Positions 3,383 to 35,701 of a stretch of 42,120 nt of DNA are shown piece after piece; within the stretch, counting starts at the first letter, position 1; the number at the start of each line of letters is the position of its first letter. The notes under the pieces are model-generated. The model was given only the letters and a program-made list of their open reading frames with translations, had not been told where the DNA came from and searched no databases. The stretch is from Puia sp. Lineage in GTDB: Bacteria > Bacteroidota > Bacteroidia > Chitinophagales > Chitinophagaceae. A program made the translations under genes and the position numbers. The stretch covers positions 1 to 42,120 of the forward strand of contig JARLGZ010000143.1 of NCBI GenBank assembly GCA_031292515.1. The letters are read 5' to 3'.

Positions 3383-3649
3383 ATGATAAAAGCGAAAGTC
3401 TTCCTATCCGGAATCATCGTAATGGCTATTGTTGGGGGAGGTCTCGCCTTCAAAGCCAGGAATTATTCCCAATCCTATTGCATCGCATCTATCTATAATA
3501 TACCGGGATTATGCACAAGTTATTTTGGTACGAATGGCGCAGCCAGACAGGCTACAACAGGCACTTTGTATTTCTTTACCACCACTTGGGATATACTAGA
3601 TTGCCCATATACCATTTGCCCTTTCGTCGCTCGATTAACAAAGGAGTAA
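3383..3649 (+). CDS. Small secreted four-cysteine protein, DUF6520-like (copy 1, divergent)
   Basis: An 88-residue protein. It has a basic start (MIKAKVF), a hydrophobic core with GGGLAF at residues 19-24, and a short mature part, so it is a signal-peptide-bearing exported small protein. It carries four cysteines. The first two are 10 residues apart, against 7 in the other two copies, and the second two have the shared C-x4-C spacing. The ending RLTKE is shared with the copy at 11678. The N-terminal pattern and size match the DUF6520 family of Bacteroidota, whose function is unknown. It lies 110 bases upstream of a second copy on the same strand but lacks the conserved leader, so it is probably the older or more divergent paralogue. 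Confidence 0.75.
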   Translation: MIKAKVFLSGIIVMAIVGGGLAFKARNYSQSYCIASIYNIPGLCTSYFGTNGAARQATTGTLYFFTTTWDILDCPYTICPFVARLTKE

Positions 3650-3691
3650 CAACAGCATATATTGTTTACTGAATTGATCAAATATGATCTT

Positions 3692-3759
3692 CAACGTGGG
3701 GATGCCGAAAACCACCAGAATAGAGTAGGCATATTCTATACTTTTTAAAACTCATCATT
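3692..3759 (+). promoter_or_regulatory. Conserved leader of DUF6520 gene, copy A
   Basis: Sixty-eight bases directly before the start codon are nearly identical to 11609-11677, including the block AACGTGGGGATGCCGAAAAC at 3694-3713 and AATAGAGTAGGCAT further on. Conservation of non-coding DNA up to the ATG in both copies suggests a promoter and/or a structured 5' leader. GTGG/CCAC and TGCC/GGCA segments could pair. Confidence 0.6.
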
Positions 3760-4026
3760 ATGAAAAAAGCAAAAACTACGCTCTTCGCATTAGCCGTTGT
3801 AGCTATCGTCGGCGGGGCACTCGCATTTAAGGCCAAGACATTTGCGACGTTCTACTGCACCGCAACTGCAAACGGCGTCTGCAAGACATCTCTTGGTGCC
3901 AATGGCCAAGGGAATCTAACAACAGCGGCTACCATAGCTTCTGTTTTTTATACGACTACCAGCAATCCCGCTGCCTGTAATAGCGCTGTTTGTACACAAC
4001 AAGCAAAGTTAGTATTCGAACAATAG
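3760..4026 (+). CDS. Small secreted four-cysteine protein, DUF6520 family (copy 2)
   Basis: An 88-residue exported small protein starting MKKAKTTLFALAVVAIVGG, with a GGALAFKAK boundary that fits signal peptidase cleavage near residue 22-25. The mature part is Thr/Ala/Asn-rich with four cysteines in the pattern C-x7-C ... C-x4-C. Four evenly paired cysteines in an exported protein suggest two disulfides. It is very similar to the copy at 11678 and shares its leader, N-terminus and cysteine spacing. A strong terminator follows at 4111-4146, and a convergent S9 peptidase lies just beyond. The DUF6520 family has no assigned function. The neighbourhood (thioredoxin lipoprotein, MauE-like protein, peptidases) points to redox maturation and processing, which is inference. 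Confidence 0.82.
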   Translation: MKKAKTTLFALAVVAIVGGALAFKAKTFATFYCTATANGVCKTSLGANGQGNLTTAATIASVFYTTTSNPAACNSAVCTQQAKLVFEQ

Positions 4027-4110
4027 TCTGAAATAAAAGATTGTTATTACACTCATTTATGAAAAACGTCGAGTGATTTTGAGCATCAGCCAGGGCTATT
4101 CACAATTTTT

Positions 4111-4146
4111 AATGGGATGACAGGAGGCTCTGTCATCCCATTTTTA
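4111..4146 (+). terminator. Intrinsic terminator after DUF6520 copy 2
   Basis: A perfect 13-bp stem (4111-4123 with 4130-4142, core GGGATGACAG/CTGTCATCCC) has a 6-base loop and runs into TTTTTATT on the plus strand. On the minus strand it follows the peptidase stop but lacks a T-run, so it mainly ends the plus-strand transcript. Confidence 0.85.
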
Positions 4147-4149
4147 TTA

Positions 4150-6933
4150 TCAGGGTTCATTGACCATATTCGATCCATAACCCATATCTATACCTTTTAG
4201 ACGAGCAGGAATTCCTCTCGTCATCCAAGTGGGAGCAGGCGCATCTTTTAGGTAGTGATCAAAAAATTGTGTCACCCGGATCGTAAAATCTTCTGCTTCC
4301 TTGCCAAAGACTGCGTGTCCGCCATGATCATATTGCAGCAGCCACACCTTTTTACCAAGTCTTCTTAATGCGATGAAGAACTCTATTGCCCGCTCCCAAT
4401 CGTTGTCCGCCTTGCAATAGTATATTAACAAAGGGCTCGTTATTTTGTCCGCCTGAAAGATCGGAGAGTTTTGGATCCACCGCTCCGGATGCTGCCACAA
4501 GGTTGACTGCATATCTCCACGTTCGCTGGTTTCCAGCCAGTTATCCCCAAAACCATCCAACGCAAGAGAATTGCTGATAAGATCTACACCATTATGACCG
4601 GCTGCACCCGAAAGAACTGCAGCAAACTGGTGCGTGTGCGTGACCAAGTAATTAGTCTCCGTTCCACCCAAACTATGACCTGAAATAGCCATTTTATGAA
4701 TATTTACATATGACTGCGTCGATAGCATCCGAACTGCTGAGAGGATCGTCGTACATACGCTTGGGCCCATTTCTCCATCCTTGTAATAGAAGTCCGGGGT
4801 AAGCACGAGATAACCACGGCTCACAAACCAGGGAATGTTAATGTGAGCGCTCCCTGTGTACTCCGGTTGTGGATATTCATAGACCCGGTGGGACAGCTGC
4901 TGGTAGTAGTTAATCAAAACCGGGTATTTTTTTCGAGGGTCGAAATCTTCCGGCTTGTACAATACCCCCTGTGCATTGATTCCATCGGGTTGTTTCCAGG
5001 ACACTAGCTCTGTAGTAAGCCAGTTATACCTCCGTTGTGGCTGGAGATCTGTTAAGGGCTGATAGTGTATAAAGTCATGGGTCAGGAAATAGTTCGGCGC
5101 CTCGGTAGCCGTACAACGCAACAACAGCCAGCTATTGGCTTGCGCAGCTTTTAATGGTTTTAAATTCGGAGCAAATTCATTGGAATTGATATTCATTGTC
5201 CAAGACTTATGCCAAAGTGTCCAAGGACCCATCGACAGTAATATCGGGCTATGATCACCGGAAATGAGCAGTTTGTAAAAGCCGTTATATTTTGTCTTTT
5301 TATCAAATGCCACCAACAGCAGTGTATCCTTTCGGTTGTAACAGGTAATATTATCATTAAAAAACATATAATAATCATCGACAACCCGCAAGCGAGTATG
5401 ATGCAGTCGTCCATAGCCACCTGTAATGTTAATTGGACCACGTCCTTTCAAGGACAACTTCCAGATATCGTAGTTATCCCCCACCAATACGGCCGTATCT
5501 TCAGGCATCCATCCCACCAGACCAACAGCAATCGAATTACCTGGGGCAAACCCTTTGCCGGGTCTATACGTAAATTCATCGGACCAGGCTAACGAGCGAG
5601 CCGGGATGCCGGACGATATCTTACGAATCCTGCCAGTCAAAAGATCATAGCTAAAATAATTACCGTCCTGATCTGCATCATAATAGATCAGGTAATAGCC
5701 ATCGGGTGAAAATGCAAACTCACTGTACCCCTCTGTTCTCAGGGGCGTCCGGGATCCGTCCCGTAGCGAAACCAGCCAGTTGCTATCCGGGCGTCGAAGC
5801 CAAAACCGATCTCCTCCGTTATTATTACGGCCGACAACCACGTAGTCTCCCGCAGGCTGCCTTGCCTGAATAGCCTCCAAGTCATGTTCCAATCGAATTA
5901 CTGCACCTCCTCCCGCAGCTACGACTGCCGTGTAAACCACAGGAGAGCCATTTTTTAATCGATAGAGTTGCGCGGATTGAAGCAGGCTGTCTTTATAACT
6001 CCAAACATCCACGCTGATTGCATCCGGAGAGGGTCTGGGCAACACTTCATGGTTTACCAGCCCTAAATAGATATATCGACCGTCACCGCTAAACTGTATC
6101 CCATTGCCATCTAGTGACAAATTCCCGTCAAGACCTGCAGAGGAGGATGTGTCACTTATCCGATATGCCGGCTTAGTCATACCAGCTGCAAAGTACCACA
6201 GGGTATTCAGGGTTCGTTCACCTTGGGTTTCACCAGTCATGAAAGCCACTTGTTTCCCCGCACGATCCATTCCATACGATTTTAACATAATATTCGATTG
6301 CTTTAAACCAGACCAGACAATCGAGCATTTTCCATCCGGCAGTGAAATCCATTGCAACGAAACACCAACTTGACTGTCGTTCTTATTACCTACCTGCTCC
6401 TTGTATTCCGATTTTAATAGCAACCGATCTTCTTTTTCATTGAATATATACTCGGAAACTCCCTCAAACCGGCGCTCTCGACCGTTACGCATATCCCGAA
6501 GAACCATTTCTTGTGCCGGGGCTACCAGATAATATATCAACCAACCGCCTGCTGGTGTTTGCTGGACAGATCCAACGCCAATAAGATACGACACATCTGA
6601 GCTTCCTAATGACAAAAAAACAAGGGTATCCGCGTCTTTGTATATAAATTGTCGGCTATCGGCAGAAAAAAAACCACCCGACAATCCCGCAAACTCCTTT
6701 CTCCAACCTCCGTCCACAGCCTGCACGATCATCGTCCGACTACCTATTGGCTCATTTTCAATACTATACATCATAAAATGACCGTCTGGGCTGATTGCTG
6801 AAAAAGGACTCATAACCGGCCAATGATTGATAGCCGCACTGTCAATAACCGGTTTTGAGATGGGCACAGTAGAGTTTTGCCCAAAAACCAATCCATTAAG
6901 ATTAAACAGAAATGCAAATAATGTATACCTCAT
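4150..6933 (-). CDS. Secreted prolyl-oligopeptidase-like (S9) serine peptidase, copy 1
   Basis: A 927-residue exported peptidase of the alpha/beta-hydrolase S9 type. A signal peptide ends near FGQ (residue 19). Residues of about 40-600 form a beta-propeller-like region with repeated 'FSPDG/FSADSR' blade motifs. The C-terminal hydrolase begins near 'GVLYKPEDFDPRKKYPVL', with the nucleophile elbow GHSLGG (Ser754), an acid candidate in CKADND around residue 835, and a His in DHGGHAV (His870 or His873). In the S9 family the propeller gates access, so small peptides are the expected substrates. The gene is convergent with the DUF6520 gene, ending 124 bases beyond it, and is a full-length paralogue of 12094-14850. 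The pairing with a small secreted protein at both sites suggests a functional link, but cleavage of that protein is inference. Confidence 0.85.
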   Translation of the reverse strand: MRYTLFAFLFNLNGLVFGQNSTVPISKPVIDSAAINHWPVMSPFSAISPDGHFMMYSIENEPIGSRTMIVQAVDGGWRKEFAGLSGGFFSADSRQFIYKDADTLVFLSLGSSDVSYLIGVGSVQQTPAGGWLIYYLVAPAQEMVLRDMRNGRERRFEGVSEYIFNEKEDRLLLKSEYKEQVGNKNDSQVGVSLQWISLPDGKCSIVWSGLKQSNIMLKSYGMDRAGKQVAFMTGETQGERTLNTLWYFAAGMTKPAYRISDTSSSAGLDGNLSLDGNGIQFSGDGRYIYLGLVNHEVLPRPSPDAISVDVWSYKDSLLQSAQLYRLKNGSPVVYTAVVAAGGGAVIRLEHDLEAIQARQPAGDYVVVGRNNNGGDRFWLRRPDSNWLVSLRDGSRTPLRTEGYSEFAFSPDGYYLIYYDADQDGNYFSYDLLTGRIRKISSGIPARSLAWSDEFTYRPGKGFAPGNSIAVGLVGWMPEDTAVLVGDNYDIWKLSLKGRGPINITGGYGRLHHTRLRVVDDYYMFFNDNITCYNRKDTLLLVAFDKKTKYNGFYKLLISGDHSPILLSMGPWTLWHKSWTMNINSNEFAPNLKPLKAAQANSWLLLRCTATEAPNYFLTHDFIHYQPLTDLQPQRRYNWLTTELVSWKQPDGINAQGVLYKPEDFDPRKKYPVLINYYQQLSHRVYEYPQPEYTGSAHINIPWFVSRGYLVLTPDFYYKDGEMGPSVCTTILSAVRMLSTQSYVNIHKMAISGHSLGGTETNYLVTHTHQFAAVLSGAAGHNGVDLISNSLALDGFGDNWLETSERGDMQSTLWQHPERWIQNSPIFQADKITSPLLIYYCKADNDWERAIEFFIALRRLGKKVWLLQYDHGGHAVFGKEAEDFTIRVTQFFDHYLKDAPAPTWMTRGIPARLKGIDMGYGSNMVNEP

Positions 6934-7478
6934 AATTTAGTCAATTAGTAACTTCATTTTGATCCAATTACACTAAATACGATTAAGAAATCAATTTAAC
7001 CAGTCCAACTATCGGCATCAAGGAAACAGACCTAAAAAAGATATTATCTTAACAAAACGGCCTAAATCCGTTATAGATAAACCTAATCACGATATAAGAG
7101 ATCTTTAGTTGTATCAGAGACAAAATAATCGTCTTAAATGTTCTTTGGGAAAATAAACCTCATTTAGGATATTCTTAAACTTGATCCCGATATTCACAAG
7201 GGATAACTTGCATCAAGATCAAAACACAAATTATCTAAATCCTCTTCAACAATAGTTTGGTTTAGGCAGGATTTTTAGCAATCCCTGATTATACACAGCT
7301 CGGTCGGCGATGGCCACTCAAAAACAGTACAAACGGGGTACGAATAAGACATTTTTTAGGGACGGAAAATGTTGGTTGAGTGCCCGCCGCCGAGTTTTTC
7401 CTAATATAAGCAGTGACTTAAAACGGGTAACCCAAAATAATATTTGTGATTTTGTTTTGATTATTCTCAAAAACTCAT
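6934..7478. promoter_or_regulatory. Divergent intergenic region between peptidase 1 and the redox/membrane operon
   Basis: This 545-base AT-rich stretch must hold the promoter of the minus-strand peptidase and of the plus-strand operon starting at 7479. The first 70 bases next to the peptidase align recognisably with 14851-14925 upstream of peptidase 2 (shared TAACTTC, CCAATT-CAC, TAATACG-like blocks and a run of ATTTAAC-AGT). The peptidase promoter was therefore duplicated with its gene. No additional gene is seen here. Confidence 0.5.
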
Positions 7479-9032
7479 ATGCATAAAACAGATTTAATAT
7501 CTCAGCAACAGCAACCCTCATTTCCTGCCTTCAAAAACTTTCTATTCAAAGATCGTAGTAATAAAAATATTATAGGGCTGTCTCTTATCGCGATTGTCAT
7601 ACAATTTTTGATATTCAAGTATTTCTATCCTTTCGCAAGCTATATTCATGGTGATTCATTCGTCTATCTGGATACCGCCTATCAAAATCTAAGTATTAAC
7701 AGTTATATGATCGGATACTCCATGTTTATTCGAGCTTTTAGCGTCTTTAGTTCCTCAGATGTCGCTTTAGTGTGGTTTCAATATCTCCTTTTACAATCCA
7801 GTGGACTCTTCTTTCTATTTACGTTATTTTATTTCTACGATCAACCCAAATGGGTCAAATCATTATTGGTTTGCTTCCTGGTTCTGAATCCTATGTTCCC
7901 GTATATGGCGAACCTAATATCCAGCGATTCCCTATTTGCCTCTCTAAGTCTAATCTGGTTCTCCCTGCTTTTGTGGATCATCCATAAACCGAATAATATT
8001 TTAATAATTTGGCACACAATTATCATATTCATTGCTTTTACTGTCCGCTACAACGCTTTAATCTATCTCCTAATTGCCGGAATAGCCTTCGTTCTATCAA
8101 ACCAAACGTTTTGGAAAAAAATTATTGGTCTCAGCGCGAGCATACTCGTTATTGGCCTATTTGTAGTACACACCGGGAATGAGTACAAAAAACTAACAGG
8201 GACCTGGCAATACTCGCCCTTTGCCGGTTGGTTATGGTCTAATAACGCAATGTATACATACCGCTACGTTGATAGTTTACATAGAAAACCTGTGCTGAAG
8301 AGATTTCAGGCATTAGACAATATGATTCGCGCATACTTCGATAGCACAAGAGATGTTAAAAAATTCCCGCTGGAGTCAGCAATGGCCAGCACTTTCTATA
8401 TGTGGTCCCCCGGCTTACCCCTTTATGACTATCGGGACAAGCTGTTCAAAAAAGACTCTATATCTTCCGATTTTAAAAAATGGGCGACGATGGGTCCAAT
8501 CTATAAAGACTATGGCCTATACATTATCAAACAATATCCCCTTTATTATCTGAGATATTTTCTATGGCCAAATGCTAACAAATATTATGCTCCACCGGTC
8601 GAATTCCTGGAGAGCTACAATTCCGGAAAAGACAGTGTCGCTCCGATCGCGGCAATCTGGTTTCACTATAACAGCTACAAGGTAACTACAAGGACGAAAG
8701 ATCCAAAAACAAAAATGTTGGATTTCTACCCCATTCTATCCGGGATGATCAACATGGTAATGTTGTTTAGCCTGTTGTCTTACACATATTTAGGCGGATG
8801 GAAGCAAAACATACCACTTAGAAAAGGAATGTTCCTGGGAGTATCGGTGTGGCTTTTAAATGCGGGTTTTACCATTATCGCATCGCCAGCAGCCCTGAGA
8901 TTCCAATGTTTTCCAATTATTCTCACAACAGTCTATACAATTATTCTCATAGGATGGATATTAAAATTGGCAACGGAGAAAGAACCAATTCAACGCGACG
9001 ATCAATTTGTCCTAAACAAGGTATTAAAATGA
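7479..9032 (+). CDS. Multi-pass membrane protein, GT-C glycosyltransferase-like, copy 1
   Basis: A 517-residue integral membrane protein with roughly ten or more hydrophobic segments. The first segment (about residues 31-50) is followed by a periplasmic-type loop with an acidic motif, YIHGDSFVYLD (Asp59). This resembles the catalytic first loop of GT-C enzymes such as GT39/ArnT-like transferases, which use lipid-linked sugars. A soluble region around residues 250-400 (WQYSPFAGWLWSNN, then KKDSISSDFKKWA and FLWPNANKYYAPP) is shared with the paralogue at 9493. The stop overlaps the MauE-like start (ATGA), so the genes are translationally coupled. Glycosyl transfer is inferred from topology and the acidic loop only. 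It could equally be an undescribed polytopic family that works with the redox proteins in the same operon. Confidence 0.65.
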   Translation: MHKTDLISQQQQPSFPAFKNFLFKDRSNKNIIGLSLIAIVIQFLIFKYFYPFASYIHGDSFVYLDTAYQNLSINSYMIGYSMFIRAFSVFSSSDVALVWFQYLLLQSSGLFFLFTLFYFYDQPKWVKSLLVCFLVLNPMFPYMANLISSDSLFASLSLIWFSLLLWIIHKPNNILIIWHTIIIFIAFTVRYNALIYLLIAGIAFVLSNQTFWKKIIGLSASILVIGLFVVHTGNEYKKLTGTWQYSPFAGWLWSNNAMYTYRYVDSLHRKPVLKRFQALDNMIRAYFDSTRDVKKFPLESAMASTFYMWSPGLPLYDYRDKLFKKDSISSDFKKWATMGPIYKDYGLYIIKQYPLYYLRYFLWPNANKYYAPPVEFLESYNSGKDSVAPIAAIWFHYNSYKVTTRTKDPKTKMLDFYPILSGMINMVMLFSLLSYTYLGGWKQNIPLRKGMFLGVSVWLLNAGFTIIASPAALRFQCFPIILTTVYTIILIGWILKLATEKEPIQRDDQFVLNKVLK

Positions 9033-9490
9033 AAACGATTAAACGTACAACCATTATTGAGGCCATAATAGTCTTATTTGTGATGCTATTCCTTTACACA
9101 GGAATTAGCAAAATAATGGACTACAGAATATTTAAAGTACAAATAGGCATGTCGCCAATCTTGAATCCGATCGCACCTGTAATTGCCGCGGCTTTACCAT
9201 GGGTTGAATTCTTAGCTGTCCTATTATTGATTGTCCCGCGGTGGCGTCTTATGGGATTAAAACTTTCACTTATCCTGATGACTTCTTTCACATTATACGT
9301 CATTGCCATATTAATTTTCAATAAGGATCTACCATGCAGTTGTGGAGGAATAATAGAATTAATGTCCTGGTCTCAGCATATCATCTTTAATGTGATTTTT
9401 ACAATACTGGCATTTGTAGGAATCCTATTGGAAAAAGGGATCCGGATGAATAACAAGAGAATGTTAGTCGCCATTCTAAAAAATATCTAA
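9029..9490 (+). CDS. MauE/DoxX-type redox-associated membrane protein
   Basis: A 153-residue protein with four predicted membrane segments (about 9-28, 46-70, 76-97, 115-135). It has the diagnostic CSCGG motif (Cys103, Cys105) followed by LMSWSQHIIFN. This matches MauE/DoxX-like proteins of Bacteroidota, which are thought to pass electrons to or from periplasmic thiols. The ATG at 9029 overlaps the previous stop and is preferred over upstream starts that would overlap that gene heavily. It lies between two GT-C-like proteins and 1.6 kb before a thioredoxin lipoprotein in the same operon. A role in forming or isomerising disulfides of exported proteins fits the four-Cys small proteins encoded next door; this link is inference. 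Confidence 0.82.
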   Translation: MKTIKRTTIIEAIIVLFVMLFLYTGISKIMDYRIFKVQIGMSPILNPIAPVIAAALPWVEFLAVLLLIVPRWRLMGLKLSLILMTSFTLYVIAILIFNKDLPCSCGGIIELMSWSQHIIFNVIFTILAFVGILLEKGIRMNNKRMLVAILKNI

Positions 9491-9492
9491 CT

Positions 9493-11052
9493 ATGTTATT
9501 TCAGGCTCCCACTACGTCCCAGTCATTCAACGAATGGCTCCGAACAAATTCCGAAAACCGGCTTTTATTAAGACTCTCGGCAGCTATTATCATTGGCCAA
9601 TTCCTCCTATTTAAGTTCTTCTATCCTTTCCCGAATTTCATGCCGCCAGATTCTTATTCCTATTTGGAAGCAGCCTTCCTAAACCAAATGATTAATATAT
9701 GGGCTATTGGCTATTCGAAATTCCTGCGTTTCTTCAGCAGCCTGACTAACTCCGACCTGGCGTTAGTATGGTTTCAATACATTCTTCTTGAGGCAAGCCT
9801 CCTTTACTTTCTGTTTTCAGCCCGTTTCCTGCTTTCGTTAGGCAAATGGCTCTTCCGCGTATTGGTTGCCCTCAGCATCATGAATCCGATGGTCTCACAG
9901 ATAAGCAACTTTATCGGCAGCGACACCCTATTTACAGCATTAAGCATCATCTGGTTTACCCAGTTAATGTGGATATTGTTTCGTCCGAATTGCCGACTGT
10001 TATTCTGGCATGCAATCGTATTATTTATAGCCTTTACGGTAAGGTACAATTCACTCTATTATCCAATTATAAGCATCATAGTGATAGTCTTATCAAATCT
10101 AAAAACCGGGTTGAAATGGCTTTCCGTTGGAATGATTACTTTATTATTGGGATGCTTTATTGTAACTACCGAATTGGCTTACCGTCAGGAAACAGGATAT
10201 TTGCAATACTCTGCCTTTGGAGGGTGGCAGATGGCAGCAAATGCATTGTATGGGTATGCGCACACAAAACCCGATTCTCCGGAAAATGTACCTGTCAAAT
10301 TCCGGGAACTTCATTCAATAGTAAATAAACAAATAGAGTCTATTAGCCATATCCCTGATTTTTTGCGGCCAGATCACAATGTCAGTGTATATTATTTGTG
10401 GGATTTCAATTCTCCTCTAAGACTCTATATGAACGAAAAGTGGAAAAAAGACTCCACTGGGACTTACTTTAAACATTGGGCCTCCATGGCTCCCCTTTAT
10501 GCTGAATATGGCCGATATCTTATCCTGCATCATCCGATTCCTTTTACAAAATACTTTTTATGGCCCAATCTGATCAAATATTACTCACCTCCTCTCGGAT
10601 TTATGGGGTCTTATAATCTAAAGAATGAACAAGTAGATCCTATAGCAGCCAAGTGGTTCGGATGGAATAGCAACAAGATATCGACACGTTTTAAGGGAAA
10701 GGATATAGATGTAATAAAACCATTTCCGATTATCATTGCCGTATCCAATCTCATTTTTGCATTAAGCTTTATAGGATTCATTATGCTGGGTGGAATGAAA
10801 AGATCAGGTCATTATATTAAGCGTCTTCTTTGGTGGATATTTCTGATATGGCTAAGTAATATGCTTTTTAGCGTATTCTCTGCTCCGATAGAATTGCGCT
10901 ATCAACTGTTTCCTATATTGGTTACTTTATTTTTCCTTATAATTCTTCTATCTTTTATTATTGAGAAAAGCAGGACAGTTAATGAAAAAATAGTTCACAG
11001 TAACGAAACACTTTCGACAGCTACCCCTAGTCAATATGAAATAAGAATCTAA
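9493..11052 (+). CDS. Multi-pass membrane protein, GT-C glycosyltransferase-like, copy 2
   Basis: A 519-residue polytopic membrane protein, clearly homologous along its whole length to the product of 7479-9032. The first-loop acidic motif is MPPDSYSYLEAA (Asp53). Shared blocks include the Y-IGYSKFLRFFSS segment, LALVWFQYILLE, IAFTVRYNSL, the soluble-loop WKKDS...FKHWASMAPLYAEYG and FLWPNLIKYYSPP. It starts 2 bases after the MauE stop, so the operon is tightly packed. The two copies have diverged more than the two peptidases, which points to different partners or substrates or an older duplication. GT-C activity is a structural guess. Confidence 0.65.
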   Translation: MLFQAPTTSQSFNEWLRTNSENRLLLRLSAAIIIGQFLLFKFFYPFPNFMPPDSYSYLEAAFLNQMINIWAIGYSKFLRFFSSLTNSDLALVWFQYILLEASLLYFLFSARFLLSLGKWLFRVLVALSIMNPMVSQISNFIGSDTLFTALSIIWFTQLMWILFRPNCRLLFWHAIVLFIAFTVRYNSLYYPIISIIVIVLSNLKTGLKWLSVGMITLLLGCFIVTTELAYRQETGYLQYSAFGGWQMAANALYGYAHTKPDSPENVPVKFRELHSIVNKQIESISHIPDFLRPDHNVSVYYLWDFNSPLRLYMNEKWKKDSTGTYFKHWASMAPLYAEYGRYLILHHPIPFTKYFLWPNLIKYYSPPLGFMGSYNLKNEQVDPIAAKWFGWNSNKISTRFKGKDIDVIKPFPIIIAVSNLIFALSFIGFIMLGGMKRSGHYIKRLLWWIFLIWLSNMLFSVFSAPIELRYQLFPILVTLFFLIILLSFIIEKSRTVNEKIVHSNETLSTATPSQYEIRI

Positions 11053-11063
11053 AAAATAATAAA

Positions 11064-11558
11064 ATGAAAAAAATAATTCTCTTCCTGGCACTTGCAAGCA
11101 CTGTCGGTTGCCGCGATCATAAGAACGAGATAAAGACTGGTTTTGAAGGCAAACCATTGCCTTCTTTTAATGTCTTGTTGATGGACAGTACAACAAAGTT
11201 AAATACAGAAAATATCCCATCGGGTGAACCAGTCGTAGTTTTTTATTTCAACCCATATTGTCCTTTTTGCAGGGCGCAGACAGAGGAAATGCTTGGAAAC
11301 ATTAAATCTCTAAAGAATATCCGATTTTACCTGGTATCGAATTTTCCTTTCGAAATGATAAAAAAATATTATTCCGATTTTCAACTAAATAAATACTCGA
11401 ATATTACAGTCGTACAAGATTACGACGCATATTTTGGCAATTATTACAAAGCGCCTGGTGTACCATATATCGCCATTTATAATAAGGAAAAGATATTGAA
11501 GAAGGCATTTATCGGGCAATTGGGCTCGAGTGATATAAAAAGTCTCTCAGTCGAATAA
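11064..11558 (+). CDS. Thioredoxin-fold lipoprotein (TlpA/redoxin-like)
   Basis: A 164-residue lipoprotein. It has a short signal with lipobox LALASTVGC (lipidated Cys16), then a thioredoxin fold with active-site CPFC (Cys66, Cys69) in 'FYFNPYCPFC' and a cis-Pro loop in 'APGVPYIAIYN'. It is expected to be membrane-anchored in the periplasm. It is last in the four-gene operon, 11 bases after the second GT-C-like gene, and 120 bases before the third DUF6520 gene. With the MauE-like protein it forms a plausible electron-transfer pair acting on cysteine-containing exported proteins. Whether it is a reductase or an oxidase cannot be told from the motif. Confidence 0.85.
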   Translation: MKKIILFLALASTVGCRDHKNEIKTGFEGKPLPSFNVLLMDSTTKLNTENIPSGEPVVVFYFNPYCPFCRAQTEEMLGNIKSLKNIRFYLVSNFPFEMIKKYYSDFQLNKYSNITVVQDYDAYFGNYYKAPGVPYIAIYNKEKILKKAFIGQLGSSDIKSLSVE

Positions 11559-11608
11559 AATATGTTGTGCAACAATTCCGGTATTGGCCTGATCAGTCAA
11601 TACCTAGA

Positions 11609-11677
11609 CAACGTGGGGATGCCGAAAACCACCATAATAGAGTAGGCATTATTATCTATTTTCTAAAACTCATCATC
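11609..11677 (+). promoter_or_regulatory. Conserved leader of DUF6520 gene, copy B
   Basis: This is the second occurrence of the block found at 3692-3759 and it ends directly at the ATG at 11678. It allows independent transcription or translation control of the small protein although the gene follows the thioredoxin lipoprotein on the same strand. Confidence 0.6.
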
Positions 11678-11947
11678 ATGAAAAAAGCAAGAATCATGCT
11701 CTCGGCGCTCGCCGTTGTAGCTGTCGTCGGGGGCGCCCTGGCATTTAAAGCGAAGACAGTCAGTCAATTTTATTGTGTCGACGCAGTAAGCGGCACTTGC
11801 GGAACCTTCTATGGAACCAACGGTGAAGCAAATCCAACTACTGCTGTTGCCGCCTCATTGCTTTATTACACAATTACGACCAACATCACAGCTTGCCCGA
11901 ATGCACAATGCCCTTCGACACAGCAAGAAAGATTAACGAAGGAATAG
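11678..11947 (+). CDS. Small secreted four-cysteine protein, DUF6520 family (copy 3)
   Basis: An 89-residue exported protein starting MKKARIMLSALAVVAVVGG, with a GGALAFKAK signal boundary. Four cysteines keep the copy-2 spacing (C-x7-C and C-x4-C), and the C-terminus RLTKE matches copy 1. The ATG at 11678 is chosen because it aligns with the copy-2 start and sits directly behind the shared leader. Upstream in-frame starts would translate the conserved leader. A hairpin terminator follows at 12042-12079 and then a convergent S9 peptidase, the same layout as at 3760-6933. Confidence 0.82.
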   Translation: MKKARIMLSALAVVAVVGGALAFKAKTVSQFYCVDAVSGTCGTFYGTNGEANPTTAVAASLLYYTITTNITACPNAQCPSTQQERLTKE

Positions 11948-12041
11948 CAAAATCAAGATTATACCAAGGTGAAAAATTATTGCAGAAATTATAAATAAAG
12001 GTTGTCTGCAGTAATGTATTGAGCTATGTTAGTCGATGCCA

Positions 12042-12079
12042 GGGAGGGTGAATGTACTATATCCTTCATCCTCCCTTTT
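12042..12079 (+). terminator. Intrinsic terminator after DUF6520 copy 3
   Basis: An 11-bp stem with one G-T wobble (GGGAGGGTGAA at 12042-12052 with TTCATCCTCCC at 12065-12075) is followed by TTTT. Its position equals that of the terminator at 4111, but the stem sequence is unrelated. Confidence 0.7.
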
Positions 12080-12093
12080 ACATTAGCTCTTTT

Positions 12094-14850
12094 CTAGCGG
12101 TTCGTATCAAATTCATAGCCGGTTTCTATTCCCTTTAGTTTAGCCGGGATTCCTCGGGTCATCCATGCGGGCGCCGGTCTATCCTTCAGATAGTGATCAA
12201 AGAATTGGGTCACCCGGATTGTAAAGTCTTCCGCATCCCTGCCAAAGACGCCATGACCGCCATGATCGTATTGCAACAGCCACACTTTCTTACCCAGTCG
12301 ACGCAAGGCGATAAAAAACTCCACGGCCCGCTCCCAATCTGTATCGAATTTACAATAAAATATCAGCAAAGGGCTTGTAACCTGGTCAGCCTGGAAGATA
12401 GGGGAGTTCTTGATCCATAGGTCCGGGCGTTGCCAAAGTGTCGATCCGATATCATCGCGTTCATACCTTTCCAATGAGTTACTACCTGTTCCATCCAGAA
12501 ATAAAGAATTACTGATGAGATCAACGCCGTTGTGACCGGCGGCGCCTGACAGAACCGCCGCAAACTGGTGGGTATGGGTCACCAGGTAGTTGGTCTCCGC
12601 TCCACCCCAGCTATGACCCGTTAGAGCCATCCGGTGGACATCCACGTACGGTAGTTCTGACAATCTCCGGGCAGCCGAAACGATTGTGGCGCATACACTT
12701 GGACCCATCTCCCCATTCCTGTAATAGATATCCGGGGTGAACACCAGGTAGCCCCTGCTCACAAACCACGGTATGTTGATATGGGCGCTCTCCGTATACT
12801 CGGGTTGCGGAAACTCGTAAACCCGGTGTGACAACTGCTGATAATAGTTGAATAGGACCGGGTATCTCTTATGCGGGTCGAAGTTCGTTGGTTTGTACAG
12901 CACCCCCTGGGCTGTGATGCCATCGGGTTGGGTCCAGCTCACCAACTCTGTCGTTAGCCAGTTGTAGTCCCTCTGTGGCTGTAGATCCGTCAATGCCCGG
13001 TAAGTTCTAAAATCATGGGTCAGATAATAGTTCGGCGCATCCGTGGCCGTACTGCGTAGCACCAGCCAGGTATTAGTCGCCAAGGCTTTTAACGGCTTTA
13101 GTCCTTCACTGAATTCATTGGGCGCAATGCAGATCATCCCGGATTTATGCCAAAGGGTCCAAGGCCCCATCGATAGAAATGTAGGATCTTTCCAGCCAGA
13201 GAGATCCACCCGGTAAAAGCCGTTATATTTAGTCTTTGTATCAAAGGCTACCAGCAGCAAGGTATCTCCCGGCAGGTAAATAGTCGTATTCCCATTGATA
13301 GATATGCTCTGATCGTCCACTACCCGCAGCTTGGTATGATGCAGACGCCCGTAACCTCGCGTAATATTGACCGGCTTGTGCCCCTCCAGTGACAACTTCC
13401 AGATATCGTAGTTGCCACTCACCAGTAGCGCCGTGTCTCCCGGCAACCACCCCACCACCCCAACGGCGTCCGTGGGACCTGCTGCAGGCCCTTTGCCCCG
13501 GGTATATGAAAAATCATCCGTCCACGCCAACCAGCGGGCAGGAATCCCAGACGATAGCTTGCACTCTTTGCCGGTCCGAAGATCATAACTGAAATAGTTG
13601 CCCTCCCGACCGGCATCATAGTACACCAGGTACCGGCCGTCCGGGGAAAATACAAACTCGCTGTACCCCACGGTCCCGAGCGGAATCCGAGAACCATCGC
13701 GCAGCGAGACCAGCCAGTTGCTGTCAGGACGCTCCAGCCAGAACCGGTCCCCTGGATTGTTGTTCCGGTTCACCACCACATAGTCTCCTGCTGGTTGCCT
13801 GGCCTGGATGCTCTCCGACCCATATTCCAGCCGAATCACCGGACCGCCACCGGTGGCGATGACCGCCGTGTACACGGCCGGTGATCCGTTTTTTATTTGA
13901 TAGAGCTGCGCCGACTGAAGCAGGCTGTCCTGGTAACTCCAGACATCCACACTGATCGCGTCGGGCGCTGGTTTGGGCGCCACCTCGTGGCTTACCAGTC
14001 CAATAAAAATATGCCCCCCGTCTGCGCTGAACTGAAGTCTCCCTCCATCTACCGACAGGCCACCTCCGATACCCCCCGGACCGTCAGATGCCCGTTCCTC
14101 AGGTTTATCCATCCCCAACCGGTAATGCGATATCGTATGCGCTGTACGTTCTCCGGCCTGCCGGCCCGTCATAAAAGCCACCTGGGTACCTAAGCGGTCC
14201 ATCGCGTAGGCTTGGAGCTTTACTCCCGGATGGTCCCGGTCAGACCAGATAACAGATAATGATCCCGCCGGCAGGGGTATCCGTTCCAGAGTAGTAACCA
14301 CCTGATCGTTTGTCTTTGTCTCCCGTTTAACCAGCAACCCGTCTTCTGCTTCATCCAGCAGGTAGCCCGCGACATTCCCGAAACGATGCTCCTGCCCGCT
14401 GCCCATGTCTCGCAGCACCAGTTCATGGCCGGTTCCGGCCAGTTGATATACCAGCCAACGGCCTGAAACGCTTTGGCTATAGAAAACCACCCCTGCAATG
14501 CCCGACATCCCTTCAACGCCTAATGACAAAAAATACAGCGTATCCGACCGCAGGAAAATAAACTGTCTGCTGTCGGTCGAAAAGACCCCACCGGATACGC
14601 CTGGAAACTCTTTCTTCCATTCCCCTCCCGTCGCCCGGACGACCATTGTCCCACTGCCCACGGGTACGTTCTCAACGATGTACATCATAAATCGCCCATC
14701 CCCGCTGATGCCAGGATAACGGCTCAGCCAAGGCCAATGATGGATCGCCACACTGTCGATTACTGGTTTCAATAAAAGCCTATAATCATTTTGTCCAAAA
14801 ACAATCCCGTATGACAAAAATAGTAGACACGAAAAAAATATAACCCTCAT
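12094..14850 (-). CDS. Secreted prolyl-oligopeptidase-like (S9) serine peptidase, copy 2
   Basis: A 918-residue paralogue of 4150-6933. It has a signal peptide (MRVIFFSCLLFLSYGIVFGQ), a propeller-like middle with 'FSPDGRYLVYYDAG' blades, and a C-terminal hydrolase with GHSWGG (Ser747), an acid candidate in CKFDTDW and a His in DHGGHGV. The coding sequence is distinctly GC-richer at third codon positions than copy 1 although the proteins align end to end. The two copies have thus had different compositional histories, or one arrived by transfer. It is convergent with DUF6520 copy 3, repeating the arrangement of the first module. Confidence 0.85.
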   Translation of the reverse strand: MRVIFFSCLLFLSYGIVFGQNDYRLLLKPVIDSVAIHHWPWLSRYPGISGDGRFMMYIVENVPVGSGTMVVRATGGEWKKEFPGVSGGVFSTDSRQFIFLRSDTLYFLSLGVEGMSGIAGVVFYSQSVSGRWLVYQLAGTGHELVLRDMGSGQEHRFGNVAGYLLDEAEDGLLVKRETKTNDQVVTTLERIPLPAGSLSVIWSDRDHPGVKLQAYAMDRLGTQVAFMTGRQAGERTAHTISHYRLGMDKPEERASDGPGGIGGGLSVDGGRLQFSADGGHIFIGLVSHEVAPKPAPDAISVDVWSYQDSLLQSAQLYQIKNGSPAVYTAVIATGGGPVIRLEYGSESIQARQPAGDYVVVNRNNNPGDRFWLERPDSNWLVSLRDGSRIPLGTVGYSEFVFSPDGRYLVYYDAGREGNYFSYDLRTGKECKLSSGIPARWLAWTDDFSYTRGKGPAAGPTDAVGVVGWLPGDTALLVSGNYDIWKLSLEGHKPVNITRGYGRLHHTKLRVVDDQSISINGNTTIYLPGDTLLLVAFDTKTKYNGFYRVDLSGWKDPTFLSMGPWTLWHKSGMICIAPNEFSEGLKPLKALATNTWLVLRSTATDAPNYYLTHDFRTYRALTDLQPQRDYNWLTTELVSWTQPDGITAQGVLYKPTNFDPHKRYPVLFNYYQQLSHRVYEFPQPEYTESAHINIPWFVSRGYLVFTPDIYYRNGEMGPSVCATIVSAARRLSELPYVDVHRMALTGHSWGGAETNYLVTHTHQFAAVLSGAAGHNGVDLISNSLFLDGTGSNSLERYERDDIGSTLWQRPDLWIKNSPIFQADQVTSPLLIFYCKFDTDWERAVEFFIALRRLGKKVWLLQYDHGGHGVFGRDAEDFTIRVTQFFDHYLKDRPAPAWMTRGIPAKLKGIETGYEFDTNR

Positions 14851-15174: not shown

Positions 15175-16593
15175 TCAAATTAATCCCATGCCAAAAATAT
15201 CTTCGCGATCTATATATCTAGGCCAAGTAGAGGTGCCCCTCTTTATCTTTTCAAGGGTAGCTTGAAACTCTTTGATAAGAAACTCAGGCTCTTTCCATTC
15301 TATCGTATTTTTAAGAGCTTCTTCCTCCTGCTTAATAGCTTCCTGGTCCCTTCCAGCTTTAAACAAAAGGTTTGCATAGGTATCCTGGTAGGCAAAAGGT
15401 GCACCACCATTTTCTTTAACCCTTTCAACGACCCCCTTCATGCATTCAATAGCAGCGTCTATTTGCTCCTTATCTACACTTCTTTTGAATATTACACTCC
15501 AGCAAATAGAATTAACTTCCAGATCTTCACCTTCACTGTTAGCATCCATCGTATATTTTTTTACCAACTCAGTGAACCATTTAGCACAATCTGACCAATG
15601 ATGATAGTCTTCGCACCATTTGATTTTTGCCTTCAAAATATTCTCTTCTGCATATGATTTATTATATTTCTCCGCAATAGAACTAGTAAGTTTACCCCAA
15701 TCTGGCTCGTTAAACTCTACAGGATGGCTGGCGGTATTTCGGACAGCAGTAACTAAATTTACAACAGGATTAATTTCCTCCATAAATATTATCCGTCCTA
15801 CAACGGATTGTGCGTAGCCATTTTTATGCATTGTTGCATTAACCCTCTCGCCATCTTGATAAAACAGCAAAAAGAATTTGTTTTGAGAATTTTTAATATT
15901 AGATGAAAGGAACGAAATATTTTTCTTTGAATAGAGACTATCTCGACTTATCCCCGACAAATAATCAAAATAGTCTTTAGAGAGAACCGAAGAAACATCC
16001 TCCTGATGTAATATTTCAGCGGTATCAATCATAAAAGGCATAATATCAAAGTTTTTTTTCCCTCGCCAATAATCAGACAACATTTTATAATAGGTCAAAA
16101 ACGGATGTGATGCGTTTGGATTAATAGCATTTGATGCCAAAGAAATAAAATCATGTGCACTTCTATATCCTGTAGCCCTATCTAACAACTGACCTTTAGG
16201 AGAAAAGAATAAAAAAGTTGGGAAAGCAGAGATACCATATTCCTTCTCAATAAATTTAACGTCTCTATATCTTTTACTTATCTGATCATTATCATTTTTA
16301 GTACTATCCATTTGCATCTTTATTGAAATAAAATGACGATTTATATAGGAACCTACCTCGTTATTAATGTATACATCTTTATCCATTAATTTACACGGCC
16401 CACACCATGTCGTATAGCAGTCAACTAAAATATATTTTTGCTCCTTTTTTGCTTTAAGAATAGCCTGTTTCCAACTCAACCTATTCAGAAACTCTACGCC
16501 TTTATCCGTCGAATCATTCGATCTTTCTATTTTCTCTATTTGAGCATTTAACAACGATGGCACAAGTGCAATTAAAATGAATAATCGTTTCAT
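15175..16593 (-). CDS. Secreted thioredoxin-family protein, last gene of the SusCD operon
   Basis: About 472 residues from the start MKRLFILIALVPSLLNAQ, which gives a clean signal peptide. An ATG four codons upstream (16605) is also possible. The thioredoxin domain holds WCGPC in 'VDCYTTWCGPCKLM' (Cys64 and Cys67 by this start) and a cis-Pro in 'ISAFPTFLFF'. The remaining 300 residues are helical, TPR-like ('YANLLFKAGRDQEAIKQEEEAL') without catalytic motifs. This is the Bacteroidota type of periplasmic thioredoxin with a long C-terminal extension. It follows SusD by 29 bases, so it is probably co-transcribed. Its presence argues that the SusCD cargo contains cysteines or disulfides, which is inference. 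Confidence 0.82.
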   Translation of the reverse strand: MKRLFILIALVPSLLNAQIEKIERSNDSTDKGVEFLNRLSWKQAILKAKKEQKYILVDCYTTWCGPCKLMDKDVYINNEVGSYINRHFISIKMQMDSTKNDNDQISKRYRDVKFIEKEYGISAFPTFLFFSPKGQLLDRATGYRSAHDFISLASNAINPNASHPFLTYYKMLSDYWRGKKNFDIMPFMIDTAEILHQEDVSSVLSKDYFDYLSGISRDSLYSKKNISFLSSNIKNSQNKFFLLFYQDGERVNATMHKNGYAQSVVGRIIFMEEINPVVNLVTAVRNTASHPVEFNEPDWGKLTSSIAEKYNKSYAEENILKAKIKWCEDYHHWSDCAKWFTELVKKYTMDANSEGEDLEVNSICWSVIFKRSVDKEQIDAAIECMKGVVERVKENGGAPFAYQDTYANLLFKAGRDQEAIKQEEEALKNTIEWKEPEFLIKEFQATLEKIKRGTSTWPRYIDREDIFGMGLI

Positions 16594-16622
16594 TTTATAG
16601 ATCATTTTTTAGTGTCTATTTG

Positions 16623-18095
16623 TCAATTGCCATACCCTTGGTTTTGAATAAGATTACGGTCTTCCAAGATATCGGTGTATAGAATTGGATACAATTGTTG
16701 AAATGAATTCCACGCGAGACCAGCTGATTTTATCGGTGTCGCATAAGTCATAACCGAGTCAACTGACGATGTCCTTTTAAGATCCAACCAACGATGCCCC
16801 CATTCAGTAAACAACTCTACCTGACGTTCATGTAAAATTGATGAAAGCAAAGACGTATAGTCTCCAGAAGTAGTATTCCCGAGCATAGACCTTGCTCTAA
16901 TCACATCTATGTCAGCCTGCGCACCAGTCAAATCATTTTGCTGAGCTCTCGCCTCTGCACGAATAAGATATTGCTCTCCTAGCCTGAATACCATTAAGTA
17001 TTCCGTGAGAGGAGCACCATAAGCTGCACTTTTATACTTATACGGGTAATAAAATGTATCATTGCCCACTATTACACTGTCTATCCAATTGAAACGACGT
17101 AGGTCGCCAGGCTCAAATTTTCCCAATAATTGATTACTCAAATAAACAGGATAGTTAGCATTTGGGCCTGAAGAAGGAAGTATGAACACCCATGCATCCT
17201 GCGTATTAAGCTCAGAATTTATAGGCTGCAATTGCCAAATAGCCTCCGAACTATTTGCCAGAAAAACATTCCCGATGCTTGACAAACTAAATGTCGGATT
17301 GTTTATCAAAGAATCAGATTCATTTTCCGCATCAGCCCAATCTTTAATATATAAATATGTCCGAGCAAGCAAAGCCATTGCCGCCCATTTTGTAGGCCGG
17401 ACTTTCTGAACGTTTCCAGAACTATAAACCTGCAAATTCCCATCCAAGTAGCTGGCGTTTAATAACCCCTCAGCAGTTTTCAAATCTGTAATAACCTGTT
17501 GATATATCTGAGGTTTTGGTGCTCTTGAAAGCGACTCATTCGTCTTGTAGTCTGTCGTAGTAATAAGAGGTGCATCACCGAACAAATTAGCCAAATAAAA
17601 ATAAATAAAAGCCCGCATAAAATAAGACTCCCCAAGCAGCTGTTGTTTAATAGAAACTGTAATGGCAGTTGAGTTGCTGATTCCTTCAATCGCTGCGTTG
17701 CAAGTATAAATATAATTATAGGCCGGGGACCAGTAGTCACTACCTACAGTCCCCTTGGTCGTTGAATATAAAGAATTGGTGTAATAACTATACCAACTAC
17801 TTGTGTTTGAAATTCCACTATACAAAGTTAATTCGTCTGCCGAAAGACCGGAAAAAAAAGAGATCCCCGTACTACCTGTAAAAACAGATCCAGGTGTCGA
17901 CATAGCAGTATAAATACCAGTAAGCACAGCAATTGCAGAAGCATCATTCCCGTACACATTCGCTTGATTTACACTTGTAAGCGGAGCATCTACTGTCACA
18001 AGTTTTTTGCATCCAATTATGCCAAAAACAATAAAAACGCCAATCCACAATCGATTTAAATTGGTTATTCTAAATATTCTAAATAATAAAATCAT
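16623..18095 (-). CDS. SusD/RagB-family surface lipoprotein
   Basis: A 490-residue lipoprotein whose signal ends at lipobox FGIIGC. It carries the hallmark SusD N-terminus 'KKLVTVDAPLTSVNQANVYGNDASAIAVLTGIY', the conserved 'ESYFMRAFIYFYLANLFGDAPL' helix, and the C-terminal 'ERQVELFTEWGHRWLDLKR' followed by a short loop to the end. SusD proteins sit as lids on SusC at the cell surface and bind the substrate before import. The gene lies 35 bases after SusC. Substrate class cannot be read from sequence. No carbohydrate-degrading enzyme lies in this operon, whereas secreted peptidases and a thioredoxin do, so a peptide cargo (RagAB-like) is plausible. Confidence 0.92.
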   Translation of the reverse strand: MILLFRIFRITNLNRLWIGVFIVFGIIGCKKLVTVDAPLTSVNQANVYGNDASAIAVLTGIYTAMSTPGSVFTGSTGISFFSGLSADELTLYSGISNTSSWYSYYTNSLYSTTKGTVGSDYWSPAYNYIYTCNAAIEGISNSTAITVSIKQQLLGESYFMRAFIYFYLANLFGDAPLITTTDYKTNESLSRAPKPQIYQQVITDLKTAEGLLNASYLDGNLQVYSSGNVQKVRPTKWAAMALLARTYLYIKDWADAENESDSLINNPTFSLSSIGNVFLANSSEAIWQLQPINSELNTQDAWVFILPSSGPNANYPVYLSNQLLGKFEPGDLRRFNWIDSVIVGNDTFYYPYKYKSAAYGAPLTEYLMVFRLGEQYLIRAEARAQQNDLTGAQADIDVIRARSMLGNTTSGDYTSLLSSILHERQVELFTEWGHRWLDLKRTSSVDSVMTYATPIKSAGLAWNSFQQLYPILYTDILEDRNLIQNQGYGN

Positions 18096-18130
18096 AACAT
18101 TTCATTTAATGAAATCATATCTAATCAATT

Positions 18131-21100: not shown

Positions 21101-21490
21101 GCCTTCAACATCATTCGCTAGTCGAGAAGTTGAAGGGGCAACAACTCGTTCCTTCTGTTTCACAACGATGGTCTTCCCCACGATCTGATAACTAAACGGT
21201 TGATCCTTAAAACACAAATCCAACACCGTCTTCAACTCGGCATTCGATATTTCAACGGTCACTTTCCGGGCGGCTTTTTCCCAATCCGCATTCATAAAAT
21301 AATGATACCCCGTCTGTTTCTCGATCTCGTCGAGAACCGAAGACAGGGGCGCGTCCTTTTGGGACAGCGTCACCCGCTCCTGGGTATAGCCCCGGGCGCT
21401 CACCTGCAGGAAGGCGGCCAATAGTATAAAAGCAGTCAGCTTCATGACCCGACAGAATTTGGGTGTCAGGAAAATTCCATAGTTTTGCAT
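18131..21490 (-). CDS. SusC/RagA-family TonB-linked outer-membrane protein with STN signalling domain
   Basis: An 1119-residue TonB-dependent transporter. A signal peptide ends near residue 36, with an alternative start at Met16. The STN domain spans about 38-111 ('LSSVLDEIEKQTGYHYFM'), a carboxypeptidase-regulatory-like beta-sandwich about 133-196 ('GIITDEDGNPLNGATI'), and the plug about 220-345 with 'DPFYVIDGVPY' and 'IESIEVLKDADATAIYGSRA'. The rest is a 22-strand barrel ending in ILTIGIQMGF. An STN domain means that substrate binding is probably signalled to the FecR/ECF pair just upstream (21904-24016). The 5' 300-400 bases, encoding signal and STN, look GC-richer than the rest of the gene and resemble the FecR/sigma genes, while the barrel is AT-rich like SusD. 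The transporter may be a mosaic. Confidence 0.93.
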   Translation of the reverse strand: MQNYGIFLTPKFCRVMKLTAFILLAAFLQVSARGYTQERVTLSQKDAPLSSVLDEIEKQTGYHYFMNADWEKAARKVTVEISNAELKTVLDLCFKDQPFSYQIVGKTIVVKQKERVVAPSTSRLANDVEGGSDTLLFVKGIITDEDGNPLNGATIRVKGKDIGVSTNPKGEFYLRNVTPHSTLEVSFVGFESQTLKINNRTTVALGLRKSENQLDAVQVIPYGTTTQRLSTGNIATVKGEDIAKQPVNNALVALEGQVPGLFVTQNSGVSGGAVTVRVQGQNSIASGNDPFYVIDGVPYSSQLLSTGLDAVLSTGTNYAGSPFSYLNPQDIESIEVLKDADATAIYGSRAANGAILVTTKKGKSGGAKFNINLQQGIGQVAHKEDMMNTKQYLQMRHEAFTNDGLTPDPSKDFDLLLWDTTRYTNWQNALIGNTSHYTNINGSISGGSANVQYLVSGTYHRETSVFPGDLSDQKGSVHFSLTSSSMNQRFHMQFSGNYMFDDNQLPPLDLTAISITTEPDAPSLYSPNGTLNWEQNSSGTSTWTNPLSYEYQKYENKTTNLVSNAILTYTIFKGLDIRSSFGYTNLQTNDFSSTPLIAYPPEFRSTYPRTAAYGQRNMNSWIIEPQISYKKSIGEGKLDFLLGSTIEQNNNNSTYLYGVGYTSDQLLRDVNAAATVYSASGVTNPITEYKYNAVFGRLNYNWQDKYIVDLTIRRDGSSRFGPSSQFHNFTSAGVAWIFSEEEFLNKNDFISFGKLRASYGTTGNDQIPDYSFLSLYNIVGNQGLPYQNTTGLSVAGISNPYLQWEETRKLQGGIDLGFLRNKILLNVTYAVNRSSNQLLNTVLPSIVGFSSIAENFPATVQNTSLELSLITTNIKTKSFGWSSKFNITVPRNKLVDFPNLASSTYTYLVVGQSLNVQHLYHYLGVDPATGQYQFADSKGSPTFSPSYPSDATVLLNPSPKFYGGLQNTLTYKGFQIDFLIQFVKQVGPNRSYWNGGTFPGNFYAGSSNQPTSVLNRWQKSGDVQPVEEYSTIFNFNIFNLQGSDFSYTDASYARLRNLALSWQLPGKWVNAARLQNTRIYVQGQNLLTLTSYKGLDPENLSNAALPPLRILTIGIQMGF

Positions 21491-21642
21491 GTTAGTTGGG
21501 GCATATGGTTAAATAAACAGTTTGCTGCATGACTTCAACTTCAAACCACCGGGCTCGTGTCGCAACCACTTGTCCGGTTTTTTATTTTGAATTCCCGTAC
21601 GCGGGCCGTTGGCTCACGTACAAGCATATGTGCTAGGAAGAA

Positions 21643-21659: not shown

Positions 21660-21668
21660 AGGCCTCTT

Positions 21669-21692: not shown

Positions 21693-21700
21693 CTCCGGCT

Positions 21701-35697: not shown

Positions 35698-35701
35698 CAA
35701 C

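Follow-up and report, generated by a model that had tools for sequence, protein, structure and literature searches.

What do small exported proteins with four cysteines do beside a set of redox, membrane and peptidase genes? The question is raised by contig JARLGZ010000143.1 of Puia sp. (Bacteroidota; assembly GCA_031292515.1), whose 42,120 nucleotides we call the window; it takes up all of contig C279 in a genome of 7.3 Mb. Our preferred answer, to which we give about an even chance, is that the locus makes an exported, disulfide-bonded and probably O-glycosylated peptide that is recaptured or sensed through its own SusC/SusD pair and cut by an S9 peptidase. The system is real and recurrent, and a literature search brought up no published function for it.

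The original prediction had described three exported small proteins with four cysteines each, flanking an operon for a GT-C-like protein, a MauE-like protein (CSCGG), a second GT-C-like protein and a thioredoxin lipoprotein (CPFC), with S9 peptidase next to two of the small genes. All of these parts are present: the small proteins have 88, 88 and 89 residues and Sec-type signals, the operon is as claimed, and two S9 peptidases over the cut-off are each convergent with one small gene. Beyond the second S9 gene and outside the span of that prediction, the minus strand encodes a Trx-TPR protein, SusD, SusC, FecR and an extracytoplasmic function (ECF) sigma factor (15175-24016). The features are:

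3383..3649, plus strand: exported four-cysteine small peptide, gene 1 (88-residue open reading frame (ORF); no DUF805b element before the gene; paralogue of gene 3, 47% identity)
3695..3731, plus strand: DUF805b RNA element (Rfam RF02914; 39.5 bits, cut-off 35.6)
3760..4026, plus strand: exported four-cysteine small peptide, gene 2 (88-residue ORF; 55% identity to gene 3)
4150..6933, minus strand: secreted S9-family peptidase, convergent with peptide gene 2 (PF00326, 51.7 bits, cut-off 22.6; 68% identical to the second window S9)
7479..9032, plus strand: GT-C glycosyltransferase-like membrane protein 1 (38% identical to GT-C 2; no Pfam match)
9029..9490, plus strand: MauE-like membrane protein (CSCGG), 153 residues (PF07291, 111.5 bits, cut-off 27; start codon overlaps the GT-C 1 stop)
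9493..11052, plus strand: GT-C glycosyltransferase-like membrane protein 2, invariant Asp53 (predicted model with fold matches to Pmt1-Pmt2 and Pmt4)
11064..11558, plus strand: thioredoxin-like lipoprotein (CPFC), DsbE/TlpA/MauD-like (Thioredoxin_2, PF13098, 32.4 bits, cut-off 27; weak DsbE/CcmG matches)
11612..11648, plus strand: DUF805b RNA element (RF02914; 41.1 bits, cut-off 35.6)
11678..11947, plus strand: exported four-cysteine small peptide, gene 3 (89 residues; PF20130, 17.8 bits, below cut-off)
12094..14850, minus strand: secreted S9-family peptidase, convergent with peptide gene 3 (PF00326, 47.2 bits, cut-off 22.6)
15175..16605, minus strand: Trx-TPR, a thioredoxin domain with C-terminal extension, in the uptake operon (PF13098, 59.6 bits; TPR_12, 14.2 bits, weak and below cut-off)
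16623..18095, minus strand: SusD-like lipoprotein of a cassette-specific group (PF14322, 87.4 bits; PF07980, 75 bits; own-genome ranking)
18131..21490, minus strand: SusC-like TonB-dependent transporter with STN signalling domain (Plug, 63 bits; STN, 37.6 bits)
21904..23199, minus strand: FecR anti-sigma factor (PF04773, 69.1 bits)
23414..24016, minus strand: ECF sigma factor (Sigma70_r2, 38.7 bits; r4_2, 41.1 bits)

In the window peptides the N-terminal hydrophobic signal ends ALA-FKA or GLA-FKA, and the cysteines stand at positions 33, 44, 74 and 79 or 33, 41, 73 and 78 (search queries with the third peptide began at 11681, one codon after its true start at 11678). The label 'DUF6520-like' fits only in a loose sense: one of the three matches PF20130 at 17.8 bits, the other two have no match, and none reaches the cut-off of 25.4. 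Peptides for comparison were collected by leader profile, by position relative to a DUF805b element or by DUF6520 hit (the DUF6520 profile itself was not inspected for cysteines), which gave 169 sequences, or 166 distinct ones without three duplicates. An AxA motif lies within residues 13-32 in 114 of the 166, and net charge is slightly positive (mean 1.6). Cysteines were counted only after residue 22 (eight of the 166 have an earlier one); ten peptides have none, 72 have two, two have three, 70 have four, three have five and nine have six. The number is thus even in 151 of 156 cysteine-containing peptides, compared with 47% in residue shuffles (maximum 58% in 500), and in 103 of 104 when one member per 50%-identity cluster is taken; by anchor of the locus it is even in 11/11 (own), 10/10 (RNA), 111/116 (GT-C) and 19/19 (DUF6520). 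L043 and L064, preceded by the RNA and judged unrelated, were left out of the parity count, and L174, which is without MauE and SusC/SusD and whose match has four cysteines, was left out of the peptide set. The preference for even numbers points to disulfides, as thioethers alone would not explain it, and from sequence we infer that the peptides are disulfide-bonded.

The leader is more conserved than the mature part, with nonsynonymous rates (dN) of 0.15 and 0.29. Conotoxin-like positive selection was rejected, since the ratio of dN to the synonymous rate (dN/dS) is 0.25 for the leader and 0.33 for the mature part, both purifying, in 83 same-locus paralogue pairs that are not independent of each other (pairs under 45% or over 97% identity excluded). 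Arrays of six to eight diverged peptide genes, mostly each with its own DUF805b-like element, were seen in L138 (15133-18225) and L116 (974-14341).

The MauE-like protein of the window belongs to PF07291, far over the cut-off, and MauE is tied to such peptides well beyond this genome. A PF20130 profile search of 392 genomes of the phylum gave a match in 35, over the cut-off in 26, and MauE was then located in 32 genomes. For 31 of 33 over-cut-off DUF6520 genes, or 40 of 42 with weaker ones included, it lies upstream on the same strand and no more than 3 kb away; the exceptions are G434, whose frame contains a stop, and G407, and below-cut-off hits in long frames (G252, G317, G318) were excluded from this test. 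Nineteen of 20 fetched DUF6520 loci carry MauE and convergent SusC/SusD, ten of those with an S9 peptidase, the exception being L174 (G407); GT-C was found in none of the 20. The original prediction had proposed to test DUF6520 genes for enrichment of MauE, TlpA-like, S9 and GT-C neighbours; the MauE linkage stands, joined by SusC/SusD, and the total lack of association that it named as a refutation did not appear, but S9 was found in only 10 of 20 loci and GT-C in none. The S9 and GT-C partners are clade-dependent.

A second set of 20 loci was chosen by MauE, 16 of them without a listed DUF6520 hit. A signal-bearing small peptide lies downstream in 14, taking the first candidate per locus (a 56-residue cysteine-free candidate in L191 and later candidates in L188, L199 and L201 were judged spurious); its cysteine number is even in 13 of the 14 (L201 has three), and convergent SusD/SusC are present in 15 of the 20. 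Redox genes were scored in 98 of 115 cassettes, 17 with a cut upstream side being dropped. MauE or the thioredoxin lipoprotein is present in cis in 78 cysteine-bearing cassettes and missing from 15, and of five cysteine-free cassettes one has such a gene and four do not (Fisher p = 0.0047); for GT-C cassettes alone the counts are 54 and 4 as opposed to 1 and 3 (p = 0.0035). Both p-values are optimistic because the cassettes are related to each other. Together with the 31/33 linkage and the even cysteine counts, this association supports the proposal that the locus oxidises its small peptide. In L164, L165, L171, L175 and L019 (7031-8104), about 350 residues that match no Pfam family, by eye possibly a beta-propeller, are fused to MauE as a C-terminal part or come after it. 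Downstream of a MauE on contig C121 of the Puia genome is a peptide with six cysteines (by eye), with no SusC/SusD in the fetched stretch.

The two GT-C-like proteins of the window match no Pfam family at E 0.1. Structure prediction from a single sequence was of no use (predicted local distance difference test score (pLDDT) 45); the model of GT-C 2 reached pLDDT 90.5 and a predicted template-modelling score of 0.90. Its best structural matches are the protein O-mannosyltransferases Pmt1-Pmt2 and Pmt4, and every one of the 50 matches listed is, by title, a GT-C enzyme or a complex containing one. Asp53, invariant in 39 sequences, falls in the first external loop as placed by the model helices, so that fold and acidic residue together place the modelled protein in the GT-C superfamily. 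Sequence membership of the PMT family (GT39) was not found, there being no Pfam match at E 0.1 and no PDB sequence match at E 1 with the 39-row profile. Threonine is about twice as frequent in peptides from GT-C loci, in a grouping chosen after the raw comparison, which had orphan peptides mixed into the group without GT-C and gave 18.1% for GT-C loci and 15.1% for the others (p 0.006). The peptides are thus probably O-glycosylated on threonine by GT-C, judging from sequence; fold and threonine enrichment support the modification that had been proposed, whereas glycosylation itself is what we infer from them. In L020 (10499-13666) and L062 (5211-8348), GT-C is fused to an N-terminal flavin amine-oxidoreductase-like domain (by Pfam for L020, by eye for L062).

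All six close S9 homologues in the genome, counting the query and the other window copy, sit in cassettes, which is consistent with the predicted cleavage by S9, whose target would be the peptide itself. With the window SusD as query, the genome yields five other cassette SusDs at 320-540 bits, followed by a score of 101; the SusD of L019 (C145) scores 36.7, so one of seven cassettes uses a different SusD. Sequence comparison marks the S9 peptidases and, in six of the seven cassettes, SusD as dedicated paralogues. SusC/SusD pairs are usually taken as glycan or nutrient importers, and SusC with STN, FecR and a sigma factor form a standard cell-surface signalling set. The window encodes all of SusC with STN, SusD, FecR and ECF sigma, and the cassette is therefore able to sense whatever its SusC/SusD carries. 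The original prediction, which had named a signal, a toxin or a surface component as possible roles, did not cover this set, and its presence speaks for re-uptake or sensing of the peptide.

Searching the genome with RF02914 and with one of the small proteins gave further loci on contigs C145 (two), C114, C184, C213 and C195. Seven cassettes, that of the window included, carry GT-C (7), MauE (5), thioredoxin lipoprotein (5), S9 (5), SusC plus SusD (7) and a LanKC-like protein (4), as found with profiles built from the loci; seven GT-C cassettes in one genome suggest a real investment. An eighth locus (C28) has MauE, a four-cysteine DUF6520 peptide and convergent SusD/SusC/FecR, with no GT-C in the fetched stretch. 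A GT-C alignment search of genome contigs returned 76 loci, mostly from Chitinophaga and Niastella, with the peptide in 61, the thioredoxin lipoprotein in 54, MauE in 30, either redox gene in 57, S9 in 45, SusC or SusD in 50, LanKC in 18 and GT2 in 21. In 20 control regions, picked by hand in the genomes with DUF805b hits and at a distance from these of about 100 kb to 1 Mb, nothing scored above 40 bits for MauE, thioredoxin lipoprotein, LanKC or S9, while GT2 did in one, FecR in two and SusC or SusD in five; neither a peptide-leader match nor a DUF805b-like element was found there. Control L083 has S9 at 35 bits and Trx-TPR at 30 bits, both under the 40-bit line.

A DUF805b element lies directly upstream of two of the three window peptide genes. 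As a marker of the system it was rejected: 11 of 40 same-family DUF805b loci carry such peptides, and the others precede another or no clear gene. The fetched stretches of all 11 RNA-anchored peptide loci include SusC or SusD, which in L051 lies some 8-10 kb off. The element is common in the family: of 60 genomes, 51 have it at E 0.001 and 34 with a score over the cut-off. By eye, it mostly lies 12-60 nt ahead of genes of many kinds, often for exported small proteins (L009-L017, L025-L064), and also ahead of GG-leader-like peptides (L025, L037) and a rhodopsin-like protein (L029).

LanKC-like enzymes occur in some relatives. In those of L019, L021, L022 and L023, all from the Puia genome, RamC_N, kinase and LANC_like domains score over the Pfam cut-offs, but the proteins do not reach the NCBIfam cut-offs for class III and IV; an alignment of six shows HRD and Lys to be invariant. 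LanKC-like proteins (L019, L021, L022, L023, L035, L063 and other GT-C loci) adjoin even-cysteine, odd-cysteine or cysteine-free exported peptides. A scan of the window with the LanKC profile of the cassettes gave no hit, so the mark of a class III lanthipeptide cluster, a LanKC in the locus, is not seen here; LanKC as core enzyme was rejected for the window.

In the mechanism we propose, small peptides of about 65 residues after the signal would be exported by Sec. Once in the periplasm, they would have their cysteines joined as disulfides by MauE and the thioredoxin lipoprotein, and their many threonines would receive sugar from the two GT-C enzymes, whose fold is like that of protein O-mannosyltransferases. 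After leaving the cell, the peptide would be re-imported, alone or with cargo, across the outer membrane by the dedicated SusC/SusD; through its STN domain, SusC would inform FecR and the ECF sigma factor that it is occupied. After its return to the periplasm, the peptide would be cleaved by the S9 peptidase. The modification half of this scheme appears well supported by comparison, and the recapture half draws on gene linkage and analogy. More tentatively, many Bacteroidota may possess such a system, in which Sec-exported disulfide peptides (O-glycosylated in one clade) are sent out, recaptured and read via their own SusC/SusD, peptidase and STN-FecR-sigma set, to fetch cargo or to sense kin.

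The same genes could be read in other ways. A secreted bacteriocin-like antagonist, for which SusC/SusD would be the entry port on kin while S9 protects the producer by periplasmic degradation, would account for the conserved leader and faster mature part, for diversified copies of up to eight per locus and for the slight positive charge. FecR, sigma factor and STN signalling are more typical of uptake, the mature dN/dS of 0.33 gives no sign of an arms race, and no exporter or immunity gene stood out among the annotated neighbours, although no search was aimed at them. Glycocin bacteriocins combine disulfides with glycosylation, as an excerpt of PMC12457901 describes, and some relatives have the LanKC-like enzyme; on balance we think an antagonist unlikely. 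The frequent SusC/SusD linkage and the dedicated SusD group would also suit a small protein that serves the SusC/SusD complex as subunit, plug or chaperone, in the periplasm or at the surface, and never acts outside the cell; we rate this as unlikely, as several diverged peptides accompany one SusC/SusD pair (L116, L138), peptides occur where the fetched stretch has no SusC/SusD (L185) and the mature sequence is divergent.

The LanKC-like proteins raise the possibility of a ribosomally synthesised and post-translationally modified peptide (RiPP) pathway of class III lanthipeptide type, in which LanKC would act in trans and MauE and thioredoxin would keep cysteines reduced for thioethers rather than disulfides. 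Fifteen of 98 scorable cassettes have such a protein, with the domains and invariant residues given above, and three of the five odd-cysteine peptides belong to LanKC loci (3 of 26 peptides there, 2 of 130 elsewhere, p 0.03; one array accounts for two of the three), a point that weighs against disulfides. Yet 83 of the 98 cassettes, window included, lack LanKC, 23 of 26 cysteine-containing peptides of LanKC loci are still even, and peptides in L023 and L063 have no cysteine; the LanC part, as read from the alignment, presumably lacks the usual zinc ligands, and a cytosolic LanKC fits poorly with Sec export. We regard this pathway as very unlikely. That a peptide-uptake locus simply has the small genes, MauE and SusC/SusD as ordinary neighbours, with no more than a housekeeping role in the envelope for the small protein, seems to us highly improbable: S9 peptidases and SusC/SusD also serve nutrient uptake and the peptides have no known activity, but the linkage is far above chance, S9 and SusD paralogues are dedicated, cysteines are gained and lost pairwise, and threonine enrichment goes with GT-C.

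Related gene sets recur in many Bacteroidota. If the recaptured-peptide reading is true, orphan SusC/SusD systems gain a concrete and testable ligand in home-made disulfide peptides, DUF6520 and orphan MauE proteins gain a role, and periplasmic disulfide formation with GT-C glycosylation becomes an exported-peptide chemistry that precursor mining based on cytosolic enzymes could miss. Elsewhere in the window, a DNA-methyltransferase-like ORF (TSPPYW motif, by eye) lies at 1216-2688, directly ahead of the first peptide gene, and a row of prenyltransferase-, chalcone/stilbene-synthase-, methyltransferase- and FAD-oxygenase-like ORFs (by eye) at 33447-39354 is perhaps a type III polyketide cluster.

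The literature search brought up no publication on DUF6520, NVEALA or DUF805b (most subscription papers were out of reach), no DUF805 paper among the matches listed for Bacteroidetes RNA motifs, and nothing relevant by title among those listed for MauE with SusC/SusD. NVEALA (PF14055) peptides of Bacteroidales resemble ours in being small and exported, with a conserved leader, a cysteine-rich end and several copies per genome. That they are the same family was not supported: the genome has no PF14055 match, and in two NVEALA genomes the neighbours include beta-propeller-like lipoproteins (by eye), and none of the MauE places listed (one of two in one genome, the sole one in the other) is nearby. 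Methylamine dehydrogenase maturation likewise places MauE and a MauD/DsbE-like thioredoxin beside a cysteine-rich exported protein, and decRiPPter, in an excerpt of PMC7794033, found MauE beside the precursor in candidate RiPP families of Streptomyces; the cassette MauE differs from both in its linkage to SusC/SusD, S9 and GT-C and in its phylum. Glycocins share disulfides and peptide glycosylation (PMC12457901), but in the cassette GT-C would glycosylate a Sec-exported peptide in the periplasm. Class III/IV lanthipeptide clusters with the prolyl oligopeptidase LanPB (described in an excerpt of PMC7268733) recall those relatives with a LanKC-like protein and an S9 peptidase, whereas the window has no LanKC, cysteine counts are mostly even and the relatives' LanKC-like proteins are below NCBIfam cut-offs. 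The nearest described logic, by analogy, would be that of lasso peptide loci with an AtxE2-type isopeptidase and a TonB receptor, where a peptide operon faces an opposite-strand peptidase and a TonB-dependent transporter. The first window S9 scores only 68.5 bits against the lasso isopeptidase family NF033523 (curated cut-off 400) and so falls outside it, the cassette precursors, unlike lasso precursors, bear Sec-type signals, and MauE and GT-C stand beside the peptides (lasso enzymes were not searched for). For lasso clusters with isopeptidase and TonB-dependent receptor a siderophore-like role has been proposed (PMC11006600).

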